The notes under the pieces were generated by a model that was not told the origin of the DNA, searched no databases, and saw only the letters and a list, made by a program, of their open reading frames with translations. From a virus, in IMG/VR virus record IMGVR_UViG_3300034066_000321, positions 1 to 27,073 of that record: a stretch of 27,073 bases of DNA, one strand, 5' to 3'. Positions 3,165 to 23,412 of this stretch are shown piece by piece (position 1 is the first letter of the stretch; the number at the start of each line of letters is the position of its first letter). Both the position numbers and the translations under genes were made by a program.

Positions 3165-3168
3165 CTTT

Positions 3169-3242
3169 GTTTCCATAGCTCAACTGGATAGAGCAACAGC
3201 CTTCTAAGCTGTAGGTTGCTGGTTCGATTCCAGCTGGAAACG
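3169..3242 (+). tRNA. tRNA-Arg(TCT)
   Basis: Full cloverleaf: acceptor GTTTCCA/TGGAAAC, D-stem GCTC/GAGC with loop AACTGGATA, anticodon stem ACAGC/GCTGT around CTTCTAA (anticodon TCT), variable loop AGGTT, T-stem GCTGG/CCAGC around TTCGATT, discriminator G. It reads AGA and AGG. CCA is not encoded. Confidence 0.95.
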
Positions 3243-6492: not shown

Positions 6493-8191
6493 CATTGAAG
6501 CCAATGGTCTTAATGAAGTGGTTGCTGGCAAGAAGGATACCTACTTGCAAGAGGCTACAAAGATTTGGTGTATGTCAATCTACAACATTGACACAAAGGA
6601 ACTCTTGCTGTTTGAGCAGGACAACCTAAGCGATGGTATCCAGATGCTGCGTGATGCAGACTTGATCATCGGTCATAACATCTATGCTTTTGACATTCCG
6701 TTGATCGAAAGACTACATGGTTCCTTGAATAAGAAACCAGAACAAGTCATGGATACTTTGATCCTGTCTCGTCTTGTGTATGGTGACAATCCACCAACAA
6801 CAGATCAATCACATTCACTGATGGCTTGGGGTCAGCACCTAGGTCACAGTAAGATTGATTATCAGGGTGGTTGGGATAACTATACGGCAGAGATGGGCAA
6901 GTATTGTCTACAGGATTCCGTTGTAACTGCAAAGATATGGGAACACTTTGAGAAGCAAGACTATATGAATCAATACAGTCGTGCTGTCAGAATGGAACAT
7001 GTCGTTGCAGATATGATCAAGCGTCAGGTTGAGGCTGGCTTTAGCTTTGACCTAGACAAAGCCGAAGCACTAGAGATGGAGTTGCTGATTGAGAAATCAC
7101 AAATCGAAGATGAGATGCGAAGAATCTTTCCAGACAAGATCATTGTTAGACATTCTGAGAAAACAGGAAAGCGACTCAAAGATAAAGTCGAAGTCTTCAA
7201 TCCAGGTTCTAGACAACAAATCGCAGAACGTCTTACAGAAAAGTATGGCTGGGAACCAACTACCACCGACAAGGGAAACCCCAAGGTGGACCATGAAGTT
7301 CTATCTAACCTAGACTATCCAGAGGCCAAGACCCTATGCAAGTATTTCGATCTCATTAAACTAATGAGTCAGGTATCTGATTGGGTAGGTCGTGCCAAGG
7401 TAAGCCGTGACAAACGAATCCATTCATACATCAATACTCTTGGTGCCGTGACTGGTCGCATGTCAAGCAAGGAACCTAACATCCAGCAAGTACACTCTGA
7501 TCCCAGAGCAAGAGCATTGTTTGTTCCTAGGTCTGGTTGGGTATTGGTTGGCTCCGATCTCAAGGGTCTAGAGCTAAGAATGCTTGCACATTATCTGTAT
7601 CCATTCGACAACGGAACCTATGCCAAGGAAGTTTGTGAAGGTGATATCCACACTCACAACCAGAAGGCTATGGAACTAGACTCTAGGAACACAGCCAAGA
7701 CTGGTATCTACTGCTTCCTATATGGTGGTGGTGATGAAAAGTTTGCAAAGACAATTGGTGCTTCTGTCTACAAGGCAAAGCAAACCAAAAACAAACTACT
7801 AAGCAACATCCCTGGACTCAAAAAGTTGATTGAGAATTGTCGATTCGATACCTTAGACAAAGGCTATGTCAAGCCATTCAACTGGCGGCCTGTCTATGTC
7901 CGTAAGGAACATGCTGCTCTGAATACCCTACTACAATCCTCTGGTGCTCACATTGCCAAGGCTTGGGCTTGTGTTGCAGATCAAAGACTACGGATGGAGA
8001 TTGGTCAAGATAAGTTTAACTGGGTTGCCTCGGTGCATGACGAACTACAAGTAGAATGTCATCCTGATGTAGCTAACAAAGTCGGTAAGATCCTCTGCGA
8101 ATCTGCAACTACTGCTGGTGAATTACTACGCAGCAACTGCAAGATCGAAGCAGAATTTAAAGTAGGTAACAACTGGTCGGAGACACACTAA
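6467..8191 (+). CDS. family A DNA polymerase with 3'-5' exonuclease domain (T7 gp5-like)
   Basis: The product is 574 aa from the proposed start; it copies the phage genome. Exonuclease motifs: DIE at D9 and E11 (within FDIEANGL), NIYAFD for motif II, and YCLQD for motif III. Polymerase motifs: motif A with D364 (SDLKGLELR), motif B with K411 and Y415 (KTGIYCFLYGG), and motif C HDE at 524-526. The first canonical start in frame, GTG 6518, would remove motif I, and the frame has a stop at 6440-6442, so translation must enter between 6443 and 6488. ATA 6467 behind AAGGAGAGG is my preferred start. A +1 shift at the helicase stop GTT-TGA-C would instead give a fused 1138-aa protein. The identity is certain; the start is not. 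It ends with a TAATG overlap to the HNH gene. Confidence 0.9.
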   Translation: MDTIRLAFDIEANGLNEVVAGKKDTYLQEATKIWCMSIYNIDTKELLLFEQDNLSDGIQMLRDADLIIGHNIYAFDIPLIERLHGSLNKKPEQVMDTLILSRLVYGDNPPTTDQSHSLMAWGQHLGHSKIDYQGGWDNYTAEMGKYCLQDSVVTAKIWEHFEKQDYMNQYSRAVRMEHVVADMIKRQVEAGFSFDLDKAEALEMELLIEKSQIEDEMRRIFPDKIIVRHSEKTGKRLKDKVEVFNPGSRQQIAERLTEKYGWEPTTTDKGNPKVDHEVLSNLDYPEAKTLCKYFDLIKLMSQVSDWVGRAKVSRDKRIHSYINTLGAVTGRMSSKEPNIQQVHSDPRARALFVPRSGWVLVGSDLKGLELRMLAHYLYPFDNGTYAKEVCEGDIHTHNQKAMELDSRNTAKTGIYCFLYGGGDEKFAKTIGASVYKAKQTKNKLLSNIPGLKKLIENCRFDTLDKGYVKPFNWRPVYVRKEHAALNTLLQSSGAHIAKAWACVADQRLRMEIGQDKFNWVASVHDELQVECHPDVANKVGKILCESATTAGELLRSNCKIEAEFKVGNNWSETH

Positions 8192-12395: not shown

Positions 12396-12743
12396 ATGAA
12401 AAAGGGAAGTGGAGCTCCACAAGTTAATGTCCAACAGGAAATGGAAAGACAAGAACAAATGATGCAAAGGCAAATGGCTTTGCAACAACAATATCAAAGA
12501 GAAGCTGAAGATCGTATGCGCGTAGAGCGTGAACGAGAGCGTGTTGCTGAACTCACTAGACGCAGAGAAGCCGCTACCGAAAAGGCAAATGAACTGCAAA
12601 GAGAAGAGCAACAAGAAGCCGCGGTCTTCCAAGAAATGCAAGGCCAATCCACAAAAGAAGTCAGTGAATTCGGTGGTGGATTCAATCTTGCCATGCCTAC
12701 AATTGAAAGACCTGGTTACGAAGGTTTAGATAGACCACTATAA
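12396..12743 (+). CDS. Gln/Glu-rich coiled-coil protein, 115 aa
   Basis: GGGAGG lies just before the ATG. Residues about 12-75 are an almost uninterrupted charged helix with many Gln, Glu, Arg and Met (for example MERQEQMMQRQMALQQQ), so a coiled coil is very likely. The C-terminus (GGGFNLAMPTIERPGYEG) is short and proline/glycine-containing. It stands directly upstream of the portal gene, so a virion or assembly role is plausible, but no homologous function is known to me. Confidence 0.65.
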   Translation: MKKGSGAPQVNVQQEMERQEQMMQRQMALQQQYQREAEDRMRVERERERVAELTRRREAATEKANELQREEQQEAAVFQEMQGQSTKEVSEFGGGFNLAMPTIERPGYEGLDRPL

Positions 12744-12752
12744 GGAGAGACA

Positions 12753-14357
12753 ATGAACGCTGAAAAGACCATTAAAGATCGCTGGTGGACACTCAATGCA
12801 AAGAGAGAGTCCAAACTGAACAAGGCTAGGGCCTGTTCAGCACTAACCGTACCTACGTTACTGCCATACCAAAGCCTGACTGGAGAGGATAATCTGTTTC
12901 AGACTTACTCTTCTGTTCAATCCCGAGGCGTTACATCCCTAGCCAGCAAGATCCTTAGTGTTCTTATTCCCCTAAACGATACTCCATTCTTTACATTTGG
13001 TCTTAAGAATGGTCGAGAACCAACTCCAGAGATTGCAGAGTATCTAAGCAAGTTGTCTTTCCAGGTCTATAGAAAATTAATTTCAAACAATCTTCGTGAG
13101 ATTTCCTATCTTGCAATGCAACATCTCATTGTCGTGGGAGATGTGCTGATCGTAATGGAGAATGATTATTCTTTCCGAGTAATTCGTTTAGATCAGTTTG
13201 TAGTACGACGTGATGTAAACGGCTCTGTAAAGGAATTCATCTATCTTGAATTCATTTCCCCTAGCAATGAGGAGCCAGCCAGTGCCTATGACTTCCTTTC
13301 GGGCGAGGAAAAACAAACAGGTTTTAAGACAGTATATATCCGAGTCTTCCAGAATGAAGACCAACTCTGGGAAGTCCACAAAGAACTTGAAGGAGAAATC
13401 ATCGACAAGGGTTTCTACAGTGTTCTTCCTTATGTGCTTCTTCGTTGGGCTAGTGTTGCTGGCGAAGACTATGGTAGAGGTCACGTCGAGGATATTTATT
13501 CAGATATTCGTACCCTAGAATCCTATAGCCGTGCCATGATTCAAGGTATGGCAGCGGGTTCTACATTCTTCATGGGTGTAGATCCAGCTGGCATTACCGA
13601 GATTGACGATCTCTCAGGCGCACAGAATGGTCAATGGGTAGGTGCTAGAAAGCAGGATGTGTTTGTTATTACCCCAGGTGAGACAATCAATCCACAACTA
13701 CAGGCTTGTGCCTCAGCCGTAGACGCAATGCGTAAAGAGGTAGGCCAAGGCTTCTTATTGCAAACAGCAGCCATGCCTACAGGAGATCGTGTCACAGCCA
13801 CAGCCGTAAGAGCCGTAGGTAACGAACTAGAAACAATCCTAGGTGGTACCTTCTCTGCTATTGCTAGAGACTTTATGGTTCCAATTATCCGTAGAACAAT
13901 CTACTTAATGATTGAAAACAATGAGATTGATCAACGCATGGCAGATCAGTTTGACGAGGACAATGGCATCCTTAATATCGAAATCCTTACGGGTCTTCAA
14001 TCCCTTAGCCGTGAATCAGACATCACCAAGTTGCTCCAGATGGGTGAGATGGTTCGCAATCTTCCACCAGAAGCTGCTTCTTCCTTCAAGTGGGAGTCTT
14101 ATGCTAGAGCCCTGATCACGGCTATGGGTTTTGATGCCAACAACTGGGTCCGTAGTGCAGAAGAACTACGCAAGGAAAAGATGGAAATGGCCAAGGCTCA
14201 ACAACAAATGGAAATGCAGAAGATGTTTGCTGGTGCTGCTGCTCAGGCTATGGGCGGTGCTGCTCAACAAGACCTAATGAATACTGGTGGTGTAAACATT
14301 CCACCAGAACTCAGTCAGCAAGCAATGCAGATGCTAGGAGGACAACCCAATGGCTAA
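12753..14357 (+). CDS. head-tail connector (portal) protein, T7 gp8-like
   Basis: The product is 534 aa, like T7 gp8 (536 aa), which forms the dodecameric ring at the capsid vertex through which DNA is packaged. The N-terminal region has the usual order of an early helix rich in charged residues, then LPYQSLTGEDNLFQ and SRGVTSLASKILSVLIPLNDTPFF, which is how podoviral connectors begin. The body carries DYGRGHVEDIYSDIRTLESYS and GDRVTATAVRAVGNE, and the C-terminal tail is Gln/Met-rich (KAQQQMEMQKMF). TAAGGAGAGACA precedes the ATG. Its 3' end overlaps the next small gene by 8 nt. In T7 the scaffold follows directly; here about 9 kb of other genes intervene. Confidence 0.9.
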   Translation: MNAEKTIKDRWWTLNAKRESKLNKARACSALTVPTLLPYQSLTGEDNLFQTYSSVQSRGVTSLASKILSVLIPLNDTPFFTFGLKNGREPTPEIAEYLSKLSFQVYRKLISNNLREISYLAMQHLIVVGDVLIVMENDYSFRVIRLDQFVVRRDVNGSVKEFIYLEFISPSNEEPASAYDFLSGEEKQTGFKTVYIRVFQNEDQLWEVHKELEGEIIDKGFYSVLPYVLLRWASVAGEDYGRGHVEDIYSDIRTLESYSRAMIQGMAAGSTFFMGVDPAGITEIDDLSGAQNGQWVGARKQDVFVITPGETINPQLQACASAVDAMRKEVGQGFLLQTAAMPTGDRVTATAVRAVGNELETILGGTFSAIARDFMVPIIRRTIYLMIENNEIDQRMADQFDEDNGILNIEILTGLQSLSRESDITKLLQMGEMVRNLPPEAASSFKWESYARALITAMGFDANNWVRSAEELRKEKMEMAKAQQQMEMQKMFAGAAAQAMGGAAQQDLMNTGGVNIPPELSQQAMQMLGGQPNG

Positions 14358-15562: not shown

Positions 15563-17536
15563 ATGGCAAATACACTTAGAATCAAACGAAGAGCTTCTGG
15601 TAATGCTGGAGCACCTACATCACTGGAGAACGCAGAGTTAGCATTTAACGAAGTAGATATGATCCTTTACTATGGTAAAGGCACAGGTGGTGCTGGCGGA
15701 ACCGCAACAACCATTGAGGCTATTGGCGGTACTGGTGCATTTGTTGGTCTTTCTGGTACACAGACAATTACTGGTAACAAAACATTCAGTGGTACTGTTG
15801 CATTAGGTTCTAGTGCTACTGCTACTACTCAAGCAACCTCTGATAACTCAACAGCCGTTGCTACTACAGCCTTCGTAAAGGCTCTGAATTTAGGTGCTGG
15901 TACGGTAACAAGTGTTGGTCTATCTCTCCCCAACATTTTTACAATTAGCAACAGTCCAGTTACAACCACTGGTACTCTGACAGCAACCCTTGCTTCTCAA
16001 ACTGCTAATAATGTTTTTGCCGCACCAAACGGTAGTGCTGGCACACCAACATTTAGAGCCTTGGTAGCCGCTGATATTCCTACTCTTGCTGCAAACAAGA
16101 TCTCTGACTTTGATACTCAAGTAAGAACAAATCGTTTAGATCAAATGGCACAGCCAACAGCTGATGTTCCATTCAATAGTCGTAAGATTACTGGTCTTGC
16201 TGATCCTACACAGAATCAAGATGCTGCAACCAAGGCATATGTAGATACCGTATCACAAGGCATCCATACCCACACTTCAGCTAGACTTGCTACCGCAGCA
16301 GCTTTACCAACATCAACCTATTCCAATGGTAGCAGTGGTATTAATGCAACTATTACTGGTACATCTAATGGTGCTCTTTCTGTAGATGGTGTTGCCGTAG
16401 CAGTTGATGATCGAATTCTGGTTAAGAATCAAGCCAATGCATTTGAAAACGGTATGTATGTTGTTACTGCTACTGGTGGAGCCAGTGCAGTATTCGTACT
16501 AACCCGTGCTACCGACATGAATCAAGATACTGAATTTCCTGGTTCATTTGAATTCGTAGAAGAAGGTACAGTTAATGCTGACAACGGTTATGTAGTTACT
16601 ACAAACCTTCCAATTACTATCGGTACTACAGCTATTACTTGGACTCAGTTCTCTGGTGCTGGTCAGATTACAGCTGGTAATGGTCTAGTTAAGTCAGGTA
16701 ATACAATTGATGTAGCTACGGCTAATGTCAATAGAATTGTTGTCAATGCCGATAGTATTGACCTAGCAACTACAGGTGTTTCAGCGGCTGTTTACAAGTC
16801 AGTAAGCGTTGATATATATGGTCGTGTAACTGCTGGTACTAATCCAACTACACTTAGCGGATATGGTATTACTGATGCGTTGTCTACTAGTTCTACATCT
16901 ACGCAAAACATATATGGTAGACCTTTTATTTATGATGAAGGTTTATCCTCAATTGGTCAATACTTACAAATCATTAACGGTAGTGACTTAACTGCTGCTA
17001 GAATCTTAACACTTGATGTTAATGATGCTAATAGAACTATTACTCTCAGTGGTAACTTAACTGTTAGCTCGGCTGCCACCATCAGTGGTACCAACACAGG
17101 CGACCAGACAATTACCTTAACAGGAGATGTGACTGGTTCTGGTACTGGATCGTTTACAACCACCCTAGCCAACTCAGGCGTAACCGCTGGTACCTATAAG
17201 TCCGTCACAGTCAATGCCAAGGGTCTAGTAACAGCAGGAACTAATCCAACAACCCTAGCTGGATATGGCATTGTAGACGCCCAAGCTCTTGATGCTACCT
17301 TAACTGCCTTAGCTGGCGTAAGTACTTCAGCTAATACCCTTATCTATGCTACAGCTTCTGATACCTTTACTACTACTAGCTTTACTGCATTTGGTCGTAG
17401 CTTAGTAGATGATGCAGATGCTTCGGCTGGTAGAACCACCTTAGGTCTTGGTACAATGGCAACTCAAAATGCCAACAGTGTTGCGATTACTGGTGGTACA
17501 ATTGACGGTATTACTTTTGATGGAGGTTCATTCTAA
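15563..17536 (+). CDS. long tail fibre protein, 657 aa
   Basis: AAAGGAGAGAAATA precedes the ATG. The N-terminus ([12 protein letters not shown], then [20 protein letters not shown]) is a version of the attachment module in the gene before. The body is Gly/Ser/Thr-rich with repeats: a block ending [17 protein letters not shown] occurs at about residues 410-438 and again at 544-572, and [17 protein letters not shown] occurs between them. [17 protein letters not shown] and [16 protein letters not shown] are other fibre motifs. It most likely forms a trimeric beta-structured fibre for host recognition. One stretch near 17060-17290 is richer in C-ending codons than its surroundings. The gene ends in a TAATG overlap. 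Confidence 0.85.
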
Positions 17537-17916
17537 TGGCAGTAACATTGCTTCATAAACGCAGTGGAACTAATGGAGCGGTACCAACTACTGGTAACTT
17601 AAGTTTAGGCGAAATTGCAATTAATACCAGAAATGCTAAACTATTTATTAGAGATTTTGCAAGTAATATTATTCACTTTTGTCCTCTTAATGATGGAGAC
17701 AAAGGTGACATTACTGTTAGCAATAGTGGTCAGACATTTACAATTGATTCAGGCGTTGTAACCGTAGCTAAGTTATCGGCTACAGGTACAGCAAATAATA
17801 CAACATTTTTAAGAGGCGATGGAGCATGGGCTACCCCTAGCGGTGGTGGCGGATCTCTAGATGAAGAAACAACATCGTTATTGTCTCTTACAAGACTTTC
17901 ATTAGGGATTATTTAA
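17536..17916 (+). CDS. short fibre-associated protein, 126 aa
   Basis: A third gene in a row begins with the same kind of module: [12 protein letters not shown], then [19 protein letters not shown]. The C-terminal part carries [19 protein letters not shown], a hinge seen in many fibres just before a receptor-binding tip. At 126 aa it is too short for a full fibre and may act with the neighbouring genes as an adaptor. It shares one base with the upstream fibre stop. Confidence 0.7.
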
Positions 17917-17917
17917 T

Positions 17918-18331
17918 ATGGCAACATCAGCACAATTTACAGCACAGCCAATTATAGATGTAAATCAAATTTCTACAGCAAATACAAATAGAAACGGAAG
18001 CGGAACAATGGTTACAGTCGCTGCTGGTCCAGCAACGGCAGCAGCAAATGGAGTTGGTAAACGAATTAACCGTGTTGTAATACACGCTAGAGATTCAAAT
18101 GTTGCAAACCTAATTCGTTTCTTTATTTCTGTAGATAATGGTACCACTAACAATCTAATTTTAGAAAAATATTTAGTAGCTAATACCGCAAATGCTGGTA
18201 ATCCTGCTACAAGAATTGAAGTTCCAGAACTTAGTGGATTGATTTTACCAGGTGGAAATACAGTTCTTCTTCGTGCTGCAACACACAACGCAGAATCTTA
18301 TGTTATTATGGTGGAGTCAGGTTTACTATGA
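17918..18331 (+). CDS. probable virion surface protein, 137 aa
   Basis: The product is Ala/Thr/Asn-rich with predicted beta strands (KRINRVVIHARD, then LIRFFISVDNG) and few charges, like phage decoration or fibre-tip proteins. No specific family was recognised. It stands between a fibre-module gene and the glycine-rich adhesin, whose start overlaps its stop by 4 nt (ATGA), so it is probably part of the same appendage operon. Confidence 0.6.
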   Translation: MATSAQFTAQPIIDVNQISTANTNRNGSGTMVTVAAGPATAAANGVGKRINRVVIHARDSNVANLIRFFISVDNGTTNNLILEKYLVANTANAGNPATRIEVPELSGLILPGGNTVLLRAATHNAESYVIMVESGLL

Positions 18332-19308
18332 ATCCTGGATTTAATGGATTTCCTATACAGACATCTGATATTATAAGTGTTGCAGAGTTTGATTATACTG
18401 GTAATTATATTGTCCCAAAAAACACAAAAGCCCTTAGTATTTATTTAGTTGGGGCTGGTGGTGGTGCTGGTGGTGGAAGAAACTCTGCTTTAGGTACTGC
18501 TGCTTTTGGTGCAGGAGGAGGCGGTGGAGGAGTAGTAATACAAGGTTATTATCCACTAGTTCAACTTGGTTTACAAGAAAACGATGGTTTGTTAGTAGTT
18601 ATTGGAAGAGGTGGTTCTGGCGGGACTGGTAGTTCAACTACTAATACTAACGGAACTATTGGTTCCCCAGGAGGTGCTAGTAGAATATTTAAAATTAGTA
18701 ATTCATTTAACCATATAACCTCAAGTTCACAGGGTGTTTTATTTCAAGTTGGTGGTGGTTCTCAATCAAGTGGAGCTACAAATACTGGTGGTTTTGGTGC
18801 TGGTAACAACTCTAATCTTATAAACGGTATTCAAATAAGTCCTAACTTTTCTCCAAATGGAATTAGTGTTACAACAGCATCTACAAACATTCCAAGTTTT
18901 TTAAATTTTGCACTAAATGGTTTAGGTGGTGGTGGTATTAATACATCAGGAGTAGCTTGTCATAGTTTTAAAGTTAGAACACTTTCTAACGCATTTGGTA
19001 TTCTTCAGTCAAACCCACTTTTAAACCATAGCTTTGTGGATTTTGGTTTTGTACCTGAACACACAAATGGTTTAGACGCTCGACAGATTATTTCAGGATC
19101 TCCAGGAACTACAATGTGGGGTGGTAAATATGGTTATGGTTGGTTTGGTGGAGGAGGCGGTGGAGGATCAACTGCCAATGCTGGTAATGGTGGAGATGGC
19201 TGGCGTGGTTCTGGCGGCGGTGGCGGTGGTGGATGTTTAGCTGGTTTTAAAGCTGGAGATGGTGGAAAAGGAGGAAATGGGTATTGTTTAATAATCGCCC
19301 ATGCTTAA
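18328..19308 (+). CDS. glycine-rich adhesin / receptor-binding protein, 326 aa
   Basis: The N-terminus has a beta sandwich lead-in (AEFDYTGNYIVPKNTKAL) then a glycine run LVGAGGGAGGG. A second, larger block near the C-terminus alternates GGGGGGG with short hydrophobic or polar inserts. That is the layout of the glycine-rich adhesin domain seen in some phage receptor-binding proteins, such as the gp38 tip of T-even phages, where polyglycine helices hold receptor loops. The middle third (about residues 100-260) is non-repetitive and would be the specificity region. The DNA is rich in T. It overlaps the next gene by 8 nt. Confidence 0.75.
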   Translation: MNPGFNGFPIQTSDIISVAEFDYTGNYIVPKNTKALSIYLVGAGGGAGGGRNSALGTAAFGAGGGGGGVVIQGYYPLVQLGLQENDGLLVVIGRGGSGGTGSSTTNTNGTIGSPGGASRIFKISNSFNHITSSSQGVLFQVGGGSQSSGATNTGGFGAGNNSNLINGIQISPNFSPNGISVTTASTNIPSFLNFALNGLGGGGINTSGVACHSFKVRTLSNAFGILQSNPLLNHSFVDFGFVPEHTNGLDARQIISGSPGTTMWGGKYGYGWFGGGGGGGSTANAGNGGDGWRGSGGGGGGGCLAGFKAGDGGKGGNGYCLIIAHA

Positions 19309-19711
19309 TATGAATTACGGAATAATTGAAAACAACATTCTTCAAACAATTGTAGTTGCTAATACACCTACTATCTTTCCATTTCCTGTTGTAGAAATAT
19401 TTGATAATGAAGATGCACAAATAGGTCAGGTATTTAATCCCGAAGGTAATCCAAGATTTACTGGAACACCATATAAACCACCACAATCTTGGACTGCATA
19501 CCAATTCTTGCTTAGGTTTACAACCGAAGAACGTGCAGCATTCCGTGCTGCTGCTTTGACAGATCCAAATGTTGCTGATTTCCAGCAACTAGCTCAGGCT
19601 GCCCAAGAAGTAATTAGCAATGACCCTATGACTGTGGCTGGTATGAACTATTTAGTTAGTGTCAATCTGCTAACAGAACAACGTAAAAACGAAATACTAG
19701 GATTAACATGA
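19301..19711 (+). CDS. fibre-associated protein with RFTxEER C-terminal domain, 136 aa
   Basis: It begins at ATG 19301 within the end of the adhesin gene (a second ATG at 19310 is also possible). The N-terminal half is beta-like (YGIIENNILQTIVVANTP). The C-terminal half is helical and starts SWTAYQFLLRFTTEERAAF, then DFQQLAQAAQEV and MNYLVSVNLLTEQRKNEIL. I recall this C-terminal pattern in many phages beside fibre or tail genes. Position directly after an adhesin suggests a fibre assembly or partner protein, by analogy with gp38-type partners; this is inference. Confidence 0.6.
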   Translation: MLNMNYGIIENNILQTIVVANTPTIFPFPVVEIFDNEDAQIGQVFNPEGNPRFTGTPYKPPQSWTAYQFLLRFTTEERAAFRAAALTDPNVADFQQLAQAAQEVISNDPMTVAGMNYLVSVNLLTEQRKNEILGLT

Positions 19712-20352
19712 TTGATATTATACTTAGTTGCATTACTCCTGTTGTAATTGGTCAAACCGTAGACGTTCAGGTATTGGTTCAGGCTAACAATCAAACTAGA
19801 ATCACATCATGTGATCTTGTGTTTGGGTGGGATACCACTAAACTAGAGTTTGTTGGTATTGATAATTCTAATATCCTAGAACCATTAGCATCTTTTTTAC
19901 CCCAAGGTAACTGGGACTTCTATGGAATCAATGAAACTATTCCACCAGCAGACGGCAATGGTCTGTATTACTGGCTAGCCCCCTTGACTGGAATTCCTGT
20001 GTACATTACTCAACAACCAAGTCTTTTGACTACTTTACGGTTTAAAGTATTGCCAAACTATACTCCAACTTCTGTAGATATTTTACCTGAGTTTACTGTA
20101 TTTCATACGGCAGAAACCGTAATTTATGGTTCAGATGTACCTGGAATAAATGTTACTGGTACACTTACCAATGCTCCAGTCAATCCAGTTATGGGTGATT
20201 TTGATTATAATGGTTTGGTTGGTTCCCAAGACATGGCTATGCTATTAGTCAACTGGGGATCTATTACACTTGGACCTAACCCATACGATTTAGATAAAGA
20301 TGGTCAAGTAGGATCTGGTGATCTATCTTTACTATTAGCAAGTTGGGGTTAA
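19708..20352 (+). CDS. cohesin-like domain plus dockerin-like calcium-binding repeat, 214 aa
   Basis: The N-terminal part (about residues 1-150) fits a cohesin-type beta sandwich: VVIGQTVDVQVLVQANN, a DLVFGWDTTKLEFVGID strand pair, and LLTTLRFKVLP near its end. The C-terminal part carries two 12-residue calcium loops of dockerin type, D164-F-D166-Y-N168-G to D175 and D194-L-D196-K-D198-G to D205, each followed by a hydrophobic helix (MAMLLVNWG, LSLLLASWG). In cellulosomes a cohesin on one protein binds a dockerin on another through calcium. Having both on one phage protein next to fibre genes would allow chain-like or docking assembly, but this is inference; binding partners are unknown. The start overlaps the gene before by 4 nt. 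Confidence 0.75.
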   Translation: MIDIILSCITPVVIGQTVDVQVLVQANNQTRITSCDLVFGWDTTKLEFVGIDNSNILEPLASFLPQGNWDFYGINETIPPADGNGLYYWLAPLTGIPVYITQQPSLLTTLRFKVLPNYTPTSVDILPEFTVFHTAETVIYGSDVPGINVTGTLTNAPVNPVMGDFDYNGLVGSQDMAMLLVNWGSITLGPNPYDLDKDGQVGSGDLSLLLASWG

Positions 20353-21819: not shown

Positions 21820-23412
21820 ATGTCCTATTCAATTGAAAATTGCGTTAAAGGATCCGTGTTAGCGGGTAAATTTATAGATAACTTAAAGTACGGAGATTCC
21901 CTAGAAATCATGGTTGTTGGAGATTCTAACTGCCACTATGGAGAACCCGCAACACAAGGTAACCTTGACTTTGGAGCTAGAGTATTCGGGTTAGCTGATG
22001 CTATTAGCAAAGTTCTAATTGATCAGGGTTATAATCTTTATGCTACTCCTTTATATCCCGTAGGTATTGGATCAAATGTGTTTAAGTCTGGGTTAGGATC
22101 TAGTGTTGGAACTGGTGACAATAGAGCAACTGCTGCTTCGGTTGGTACTGGTACTATTAGATTAAACAGAGATGTTAATACTTTAGCTGGTTATTTAGGT
22201 TCATCCTATAACTTTACCAATGCTGCTTTTAGTGCTTTACCAGATGACTTTACATTCTTTTATAATGAAATGTCTAAAGATAGACTAGCTACTAGTATTG
22301 GTACATTAAAGCAGGGATTCTATTCACACGATCCAAGTGCCGTAGCCCAACCAGCTTCTACTAATTGGTTTATGATGACTGCATCTAATACTTCAGCTCA
22401 AACTGGTAGAGTTGATAAACTAATGTTAGATGGTGATCCTTGGCTTTCGGCTTCTAAACTTGATAACAATACTTTGTATTTTAGACTTACACACTCAAGT
22501 ACTCCAAACGGTGGGTCAATTAATCTTGCACTTACCAGAAATATTGGCGGTGGATTAACTAACGCTGGTGCAGCAAACCTTACATTTGCAGCTAAAAATA
22601 CTGGAGAAACTGGAGCTAGGTTTAAAGATTCCGAACTGGCTATTAATACACTATCTGTTTCTGGAACACCTGTTACTTCAAGTAATATTGTAAAGTCAGA
22701 TGGTATTAATATTTTCTTTAATGGCGGTGTAAACGGTTCTTTAACTGCTCCAATTGGTTTATTCTTTATGTCTGTATATGAAAAGAAACCAGGCTTTAGC
22801 GTAAATCTTTTACAATGTGAAGGACAAGCTTTACCAGAAGATCACTTTAATAAGTTTAAAGATATCATTGATAATGGAAACTATATCAAACAATTCTTTA
22901 AAGCAGCAATTAGACGCCAAAATGCAGCTAATCCAAAAGCAAGTGGTAAAGTTCTTATTGTATTCCAAGCTGGTACCAATACAAACGTTAATCAAGGTAT
23001 CTATAATGCTTCTACAAACAGCACTAATGCTACCAAACGTGTAAAAGATTCCTTTGAAAATTCAATAATTATGCTAAAGAAAGAATGGGTTAATTGTGGT
23101 TTTGCTCCTTCGGATTTAGCTTTTGTTGTTGTAGGTGGACCTATAACATCAAATACATTTAGTGATGATATCTCTAGACTTTTGTTTGATGGCTCAGGTG
23201 ATAACACCATTACAGCAGTAGATCATACTAAGTCACTGCCACGTTCTGATTATGTAACTGGTCAGTATTGGGATGGCGGTGGTGCAACAGGAGCTGGTTC
23301 AAGTACACCAGCTACTCACCTAGCAGAACCAGGTTATATTGAATGGGCTAGATCAATTATATTAAATATTTTAAACTATTCACGAAGAACCTTTAAGCAA
23401 AAGCGAGGTTAA
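21820..23412 (+). CDS. SGNH/GDSL-hydrolase-like tail protein, 530 aa
   Basis: TAAAGGAGAGAATAA precedes the ATG. The N-terminus carries GDSN at residues 34-37, the block I motif with the catalytic serine (S36). GTN at 385-387 is a candidate for block III (asparagine N387 in the oxyanion hole), and H500 in ATHLAEPGYIEW is in the right place for the catalytic histidine of block V. The usual Asp three residues before that His is absent, which is seen in some active members. About 200 residues between blocks are Gly/Ser/Asn-rich and fibre-like. Such tail-associated esterases remove acetyl groups from surface polysaccharide; that role here is inferred from the neighbouring fibre genes. Confidence 0.65.
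   Translation: MSYSIENCVKGSVLAGKFIDNLKYGDSLEIMVVGDSNCHYGEPATQGNLDFGARVFGLADAISKVLIDQGYNLYATPLYPVGIGSNVFKSGLGSSVGTGDNRATAASVGTGTIRLNRDVNTLAGYLGSSYNFTNAAFSALPDDFTFFYNEMSKDRLATSIGTLKQGFYSHDPSAVAQPASTNWFMMTASNTSAQTGRVDKLMLDGDPWLSASKLDNNTLYFRLTHSSTPNGGSINLALTRNIGGGLTNAGAANLTFAAKNTGETGARFKDSELAINTLSVSGTPVTSSNIVKSDGINIFFNGGVNGSLTAPIGLFFMSVYEKKPGFSVNLLQCEGQALPEDHFNKFKDIIDNGNYIKQFFKAAIRRQNAANPKASGKVLIVFQAGTNTNVNQGIYNASTNSTNATKRVKDSFENSIIMLKKEWVNCGFAPSDLAFVVVGGPITSNTFSDDISRLLFDGSGDNTITAVDHTKSLPRSDYVTGQYWDGGGATGAGSSTPATHLAEPGYIEWARSIILNILNYSRRTFKQKRG

Follow-up and report, generated by a model that had tools for sequence, protein, structure and literature searches.

Why does a phage carry a cohesin and a dockerin together, on one small protein next to its tail fibre genes? 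Few protein locks are as strong as the cohesin-dockerin pair, which is familiar from the building of cellulosomes. The gene that raises the question lies in a 27,073-base IMG/VR record, itself a fragment (IMGVR_UViG_3300034066_000321), which was analysed over its whole length and is called the window here. The window belongs to a podovirus-like phage and encodes a portal/head-tail adaptor and scaffold-like and major head proteins, together with a class II ribonucleotide reductase, a primase-helicase and a PolA-type polymerase. The original prediction placed the gene inside the fibre operon, and this was borne out: the genes between 15563 and 19711 either match tail-fibre PHROGs or look like fibre genes. 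The cohesin-dockerin gene starts within an ATGA at 19708-19711, where its start codon overlaps the stop codon of the preceding 136-aa gene. In the related contig L002 the counterpart of the 136-aa gene is found at 7594-8004. Two further observations were made in the window. A tRNA-Arg-like sequence at 3166-3242 is 85-91% identical to the tRNA-Arg of unrelated enterobacterial and other phages, and a 530-aa protein in the structural region (21820-23412) has a 'GDSN' motif that hints at an SGNH-type hydrolase, with relatives in L023 and L025 and no Pfam match.

The 214-aa protein was compared with profiles of both modules. It scored 25.6 bits against the Pfam Cohesin family (PF00963), over the curated cut-off of 24.1, and the L002 copy scored 26.7 bits. 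Against Dockerin_1 (PF00404) it reached 15.1 bits, below the cut-off of 22.9, whereas its homologues scored 23-41 bits and 17 of 27 related viral records were over the cut-off. The profile search thus agreed with the prediction for the cohesin and, for the dockerin, in the homologues but not in the window copy itself. PHROGs held no family for the protein, and NCBIfam gave no match for it (P0001), its homologues reaching dockerin_GC only below threshold. The calcium ligands of the two F-hand loops are exactly those that had been predicted (D164, D166, N168 and D175 in the first loop; D194, D196, D198 and D205 in the second), and the two repeats are near-symmetric, with a serine at loop position 10 in both. 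When the whole window was translated in all six frames, a strict pattern of F-hand plus helix appeared in two places, both within 19708-20352, and it was absent from 200 shuffled windows; a chance F-hand or an artefact of the cut-off is ruled out by the shuffles together with the homologues. Beyond this gene, no further dockerin or cohesin was detected in the window, which is a fragment of a genome.

From 25 aligned sequences of window and locus proteins, AlphaFold2 modelled the 214-aa protein with a pLDDT of 92.3 and a pTM of 0.85. In the model, residues 2-158 form a beta-sandwich, after which come two helices (173-181 and 203-211), each placed after an F-hand loop, in keeping with the pair of dockerin-type loops with hydrophobic helices that had been read from the sequence. 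A Foldseek search against the PDB also upheld the claim of a cohesin-like sandwich, the best 50 matches listed all being cohesins or cohesin-dockerin complexes (best E value 2.1e-8; 3ul4_A, TM 0.78 by target). In a phmmer alignment to the 1OHZ cohesin (E value 0.004), S34-C35-D36 fell on N37-C38-D39 (ITSCD in the query, IANCD in the chain), the last of which we take to be a dockerin-contact residue in the solved complex. In the family alignment the Asp at D36 is kept in every dockerin-bearing viral member, and another residue takes its place in the second domain of the double cohesins that lack a dockerin. By profile and fold the protein is a true cohesin, and its tail is dockerin-like by structure and homologues, not by its own Pfam score. 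The features are listed in Table 1.

Table 1. Features of the cohesin-dockerin locus and of genes near the cohesin gene in related contigs; positions refer to the window unless a contig is named
Feature	Position	Strand	Remarks
657-aa tail fibre / virion structural protein	15563..17536	+	PHROG tail fibre and head decoration families
Fibre N-terminal-type protein	17536..17916	+	PHROG tail fibre families
Glycine-rich fibre-tip-like protein	18328..19308	+	Pfam PF21722 over cut-off
136-aa fibre-operon gene	19301..19711	+	phrog_25252; C-terminal half conserved among relatives
Cohesin-dockerin gene	19708..20352	+	ATG start, 214 aa, no signal peptide
Cohesin module, residues 1-158	19708..20181	+	begins at first beta-strand; PF00963, AlphaFold2 strands 2-158, PDB fold matches
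D36 codon	19813..19815	+	aligned with cohesin D39 of 1OHZ; kept in dockerin-bearing viral rows
F-hand loop 1, residues 164-175, DFDYNGLVGSQD	20197..20232	+	followed by helix 173-181
F-hand loop 2, residues 194-205, DLDKDGQVGSGD	20287..20322	+	followed by helix 203-211
~220-aa exported protein	L027:7220-7885; L031:6953-7621; L030:3202-3870; L032:6971-7642		no Pfam or NCBIfam match over cut-off
Outer-membrane-barrel-like proteins	L008:3050-3838; L022:5193-5960; L035:6879-7628; L005:14833-15609		
~395-aa gene	L008:5138-6328; L012:6380-7564; L022:10258-11448; L095:7306-8493		

The fold is shared with type I cohesins (PF00963; CipA Coh2 of Clostridium thermocellum, 1OHZ and 1ANU) at Foldseek E values of about 1e-6 to 2e-8, as are the motif G-x-T-V / C-D-x-V-F-x-(W/Y)-D and the equivalent of D39. 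Unlike these cohesins, the phage module is a single copy without a scaffoldin, has Ser34 in place of N37, and is 10-20% identical to them in the structure matches. The tail resembles type I dockerins (PF00404) in its two F-hand loops, with D or N at positions 1, 3, 5 and 12 and a hydrophobic helix after each, and differs from them in its score below the cut-off, its planctomycete-like ending LLxxWG and the lack of an attached enzyme. A cellulosomal scaffoldin has several cohesins, a CBM and partner enzymes encoded in the same genome, whereas the window fragment holds one cohesin. The two modules were originally said to lie normally on different proteins, and this part of the prediction fails. 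Cellulosomal scaffoldins have both on one protein. So do proteins of ANME archaea (PMC9012536) and of Planctomycetes, including the closest cellular homologues of the phage protein, L036 and L038. For freshwater Planctomycetes a cohesin/dockerin 'planctosome' has been proposed, with an adaptor that has both modules, along with a signal peptide and an HYR domain (PMC6461901). The window copy is like this adaptor and L036/L038 in joining cohesin and dockerin, but it lacks the adaptor's signal peptide and HYR, and it lies in a fibre operon whereas the cellular Planctomycete copies are exported with a signal peptide. Our search of the open-licence literature found no phage-encoded cohesin or cohesin-dockerin protein and only two loose mentions of phage dockerins, namely VvAW1 gene 40, a blastp note with no modules shown (PMC3558961), and HSE2 Gp02, which rests on a carbohydrate-binding domain, PDB 2WZ8 (PMC5967307). 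Both were annotated by similarity to dockerin proteins, with neither a dockerin nor a cohesin demonstrated. Neither module is new in itself, and cells are known to join the two on one protein; for a phage that encodes them we found no earlier description in that literature.

The protein proved to be no singleton, being a member of an accessory family. Relatives were found in about 50 IMG/VR viral contigs, both podovirus-like and T4-like (our own count, taking repeats of one contig once and excluding L059 and L060, which had weak matches without a clear ORF). The carriers are unrelated phage types; the T4-like ones were recognised by UvsX, primase and baseplate wedge families, and a T4 portal is present in G020 and G026. 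Three layouts occur: cohesin plus dockerin, two cohesins plus dockerin (L098 and L099), and two cohesins in which no dockerin was detected (L005, L006, L022-L024 and others). A double cohesin without dockerin was modelled by AlphaFold2 with a pLDDT of 78.6, and its best PDB match was a type II cohesin dyad; the model also matches integrins, as tandem beta-sandwiches may be expected to. A tblastn search of 50,697 INPHARED phage records gave no relative, and a plasmid search gave a single weak match, to the dockerin part only.

Within the phage group of the window, the cohesin gene was present in 7 of the 27 contigs that extend at least 6.5 kb after the portal, some of these contigs being near-identical, and in L097 and L114, which have shorter flanks, it likewise follows the fibre gene. 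The same slot is filled in L098 and L099 by the two-cohesin plus dockerin protein and in L134 (14664-16529) by an exported protein of 621 aa whose repeats suggest a beta-helix and whose tail is dockerin-like (E value 3.7e-6 with the family profile, no Pfam match), while in most other contigs of the group nothing recognisable was found there. The slot after the fibre genes is an accessory slot. In T4-like phages the cohesin gene often lies outside any fibre cluster. Beside the cohesin-dockerin gene in T4-like contigs is an exported protein of about 220 aa that ends in 'APTPGAIALLGMAGLMGRRRR', similar to a sorting tail of the PEP-CTERM type, and exported outer-membrane-barrel-like proteins (C-terminal F; weak Opacity or MetA-pathway matches) are encoded near the cohesin gene in such contigs. 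The 102-kb T4-like phage contig L032 also encodes a subtilase (12729-14177, minus strand; Peptidase_S8, 142 bits) that carries a dockerin-like pair at its C-terminus. A conserved gene of about 395 aa adjoining the cohesin gene has a G-rich motif, 'GAGGGSGSGSS', that hints at a tubulin/FtsZ-like GTPase.

Most family copies have a Sec signal peptide (called by eye and with a simple script, not SignalP), that of L023 being a plain one, MKLLITLLVLFCNTLAYTQ. The window copy, L002, L067, L070, L077, L097 and L007 lack it and start at the first strand; in the first six it is missing exactly at the domain boundary, with the modules kept. Copies without a signal peptide made up 7 of 12 in late or structural contexts against 1 of 22 in others (Fisher p 0.001, in a test that ignores kinship and with contexts assigned by our own reading). 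A clean rule that copies lacking the signal peptide are late genes is broken by copies that have one in the fibre-operon slot (L023, L098, L135, L136 and L139), and L007 lacks one yet lies in a replication region. The association is thus a tendency and not a rule, and the trait requires at least three changes on the tree. Because relatives in the same slot have signal peptides, which is at odds with virion assembly in the cytoplasm, position alone is weak evidence for a virion role, and since such copies also occur in late clusters, a virion location for the window protein is only a working hypothesis. The proposal that the protein is a part of the fibre consequently fits some members and not others, the family being mostly signal peptide-bearing and often outside a fibre cluster in the T4-like phages.

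Between the window and L002, the cohesin-dockerin gene has a dN of 0.014 and a dS of 0.30 (dN/dS about 0.05), while the dS of the other structural and fibre genes of this pair is 0.68-1.42. The gene is under purifying selection in this pair, and the low dN together with a dS below that of the neighbours suggests a conserved function plus recent exchange of the gene among phages.

The nearest cellular homologues were found in Planctomycete MAGs, in agreement with the link to that phylum drawn originally, and in two unclassified lake MAGs. The closest, L036 and L038, have the cohesin-dockerin layout with a signal peptide; L036 has 255 aa and is about 37-39% identical to the phage protein. Viral and cellular copies are at most about 40% identical and form largely separate groups. 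In a tree of the cohesin part they lie, as drawn, on opposite sides of one branch with 88/90 support; a second tree, which included further phage rows, separated them less cleanly. Among the matches listed, three of these MAGs have 55, 80 and 25 Dockerin_1 matches and 5, 2 and 0 cohesin (PF00963) matches, dockerins thus being plentiful in such cells and cohesins few. The family profile gave 108-151 matches in the Planctomycete MAGs with the closest homologues, mostly dockerin tails, the number scored being limited to 150. Judging from the modules, that is, from these homologues, the dockerin-rich MAGs and the proposed planctosome, the host of the window phage is probably a planctomycete. The portal of the window phage had no match in 298 genomes of the class of the Phycisphaerales MAG, a result that is uninformative on the host either way.

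The explanation that we consider best, at somewhat less than an even chance, is that the protein is a Planctomycete extracellular cohesin-dockerin adaptor adapted by phages, which would link the virion or the lysate to dockerin-tailed host surface proteins. Because it is translated with the fibres and without a Sec signal, the window copy would stay in the cytoplasm until assembly or lysis. It may then leave the cell as part of the virion or in its company. Outside, its cohesin would grip, in a calcium-dependent manner, a dockerin-tailed surface protein of the next planctomycete cell; its own dockerin could serve as a second attachment point, with either the virion or a host cohesin as its partner. 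Overall, this would bring about attachment to the surface network of the host or a disturbance of it, and relatives with a signal peptide would act in the same way from inside the infected cell, by export. We infer both the virion location and the binding partner of the window protein. As the cohesin is what the members have in common, one branch having two of them and no detected dockerin, their shared partner is probably a dockerin of the host, and with probable hosts so rich in dockerins the simplest shared function would be the binding of dockerin-tailed extracellular proteins of the host. We know of no means of predicting the specificity of cohesin-dockerin binding from sequence. That virion-borne copies (those without a signal peptide) and exported copies alike capture such proteins, as a calcium-dependent lock for adsorption or superinfection control, is a possibility that we put forward with greater reserve; if true, it would be the first cohesin-dockerin system to be described from a virus. 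Among the three roles originally offered, one at the host surface, by mimicry, is the best supported.

It is possible, if rather unlikely, that the family instead modifies the surface of the infected cell, exported copies coating or reorganising the host cohesin-dockerin layer (for superinfection exclusion, or for control of aggregation or surface peptidases), and that the window copy acts after lysis or as a decoy saturating dockerins around lysed cells, with no part in the virion. The clear signal peptide of most members, its presence even in copies within fibre operons, and the frequent position of the T4-like gene near those of exported proteins with PEP-CTERM-like tails or outer-membrane-barrel-like features are all consistent with this. 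Against it stand the six copies that lack the signal peptide exactly at the domain boundary and keep their modules, and the purifying selection on the window/L002 pair, which lacks one. We consider it improbable that the protein assembles with itself, as had also been proposed, each cohesin holding the dockerin of a neighbouring copy so that the copies form chains or are fixed to a fibre. The presence of both modules on one protein, in a window with no other dockerin or cohesin detected, would suit such self-assembly, as would the near-symmetric repeats with their shared serine, but chaining is weakened by the sister branch of two cohesins without a detected dockerin, and cellulosomal proteins with both modules usually bind third parties. 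More improbable still is a degenerate scaffold, in which an Ig-like sandwich with an EF-hand tail would be a generic fibre-associated adhesin without cohesin-dockerin recognition. Ig-like domains are frequent in phage virions and the window dockerin is below the Pfam cut-off; however, every one of the best PDB matches listed was a cohesin or a cohesin complex, and all aligned dockerin-bearing viral members keep both the cohesin Asp equivalent to D36 and the calcium-binding residues of the loops (positions 1, 3, 5 and 12). A host gene captured recently and without function for the phage, to which the accessory distribution and the low dS might point, is very hard to credit and is largely refuted by the purifying selection and by the breadth of the family, whose viral copies stand largely apart from the cellular ones, at no more than about 40% identity, in unrelated phage types.

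Our preferred reading, a phage-adapted adaptor that binds dockerin-tailed host proteins, suggests a route of phage attachment or surface interference that runs through a host assembly system and not through sugars or porins. A system by which hosts assemble their surfaces appears to have been taken over by phages, and a phage family that keeps cohesins both with and without signal peptides offers a direct handle on the role of these modules at planctomycete surfaces.
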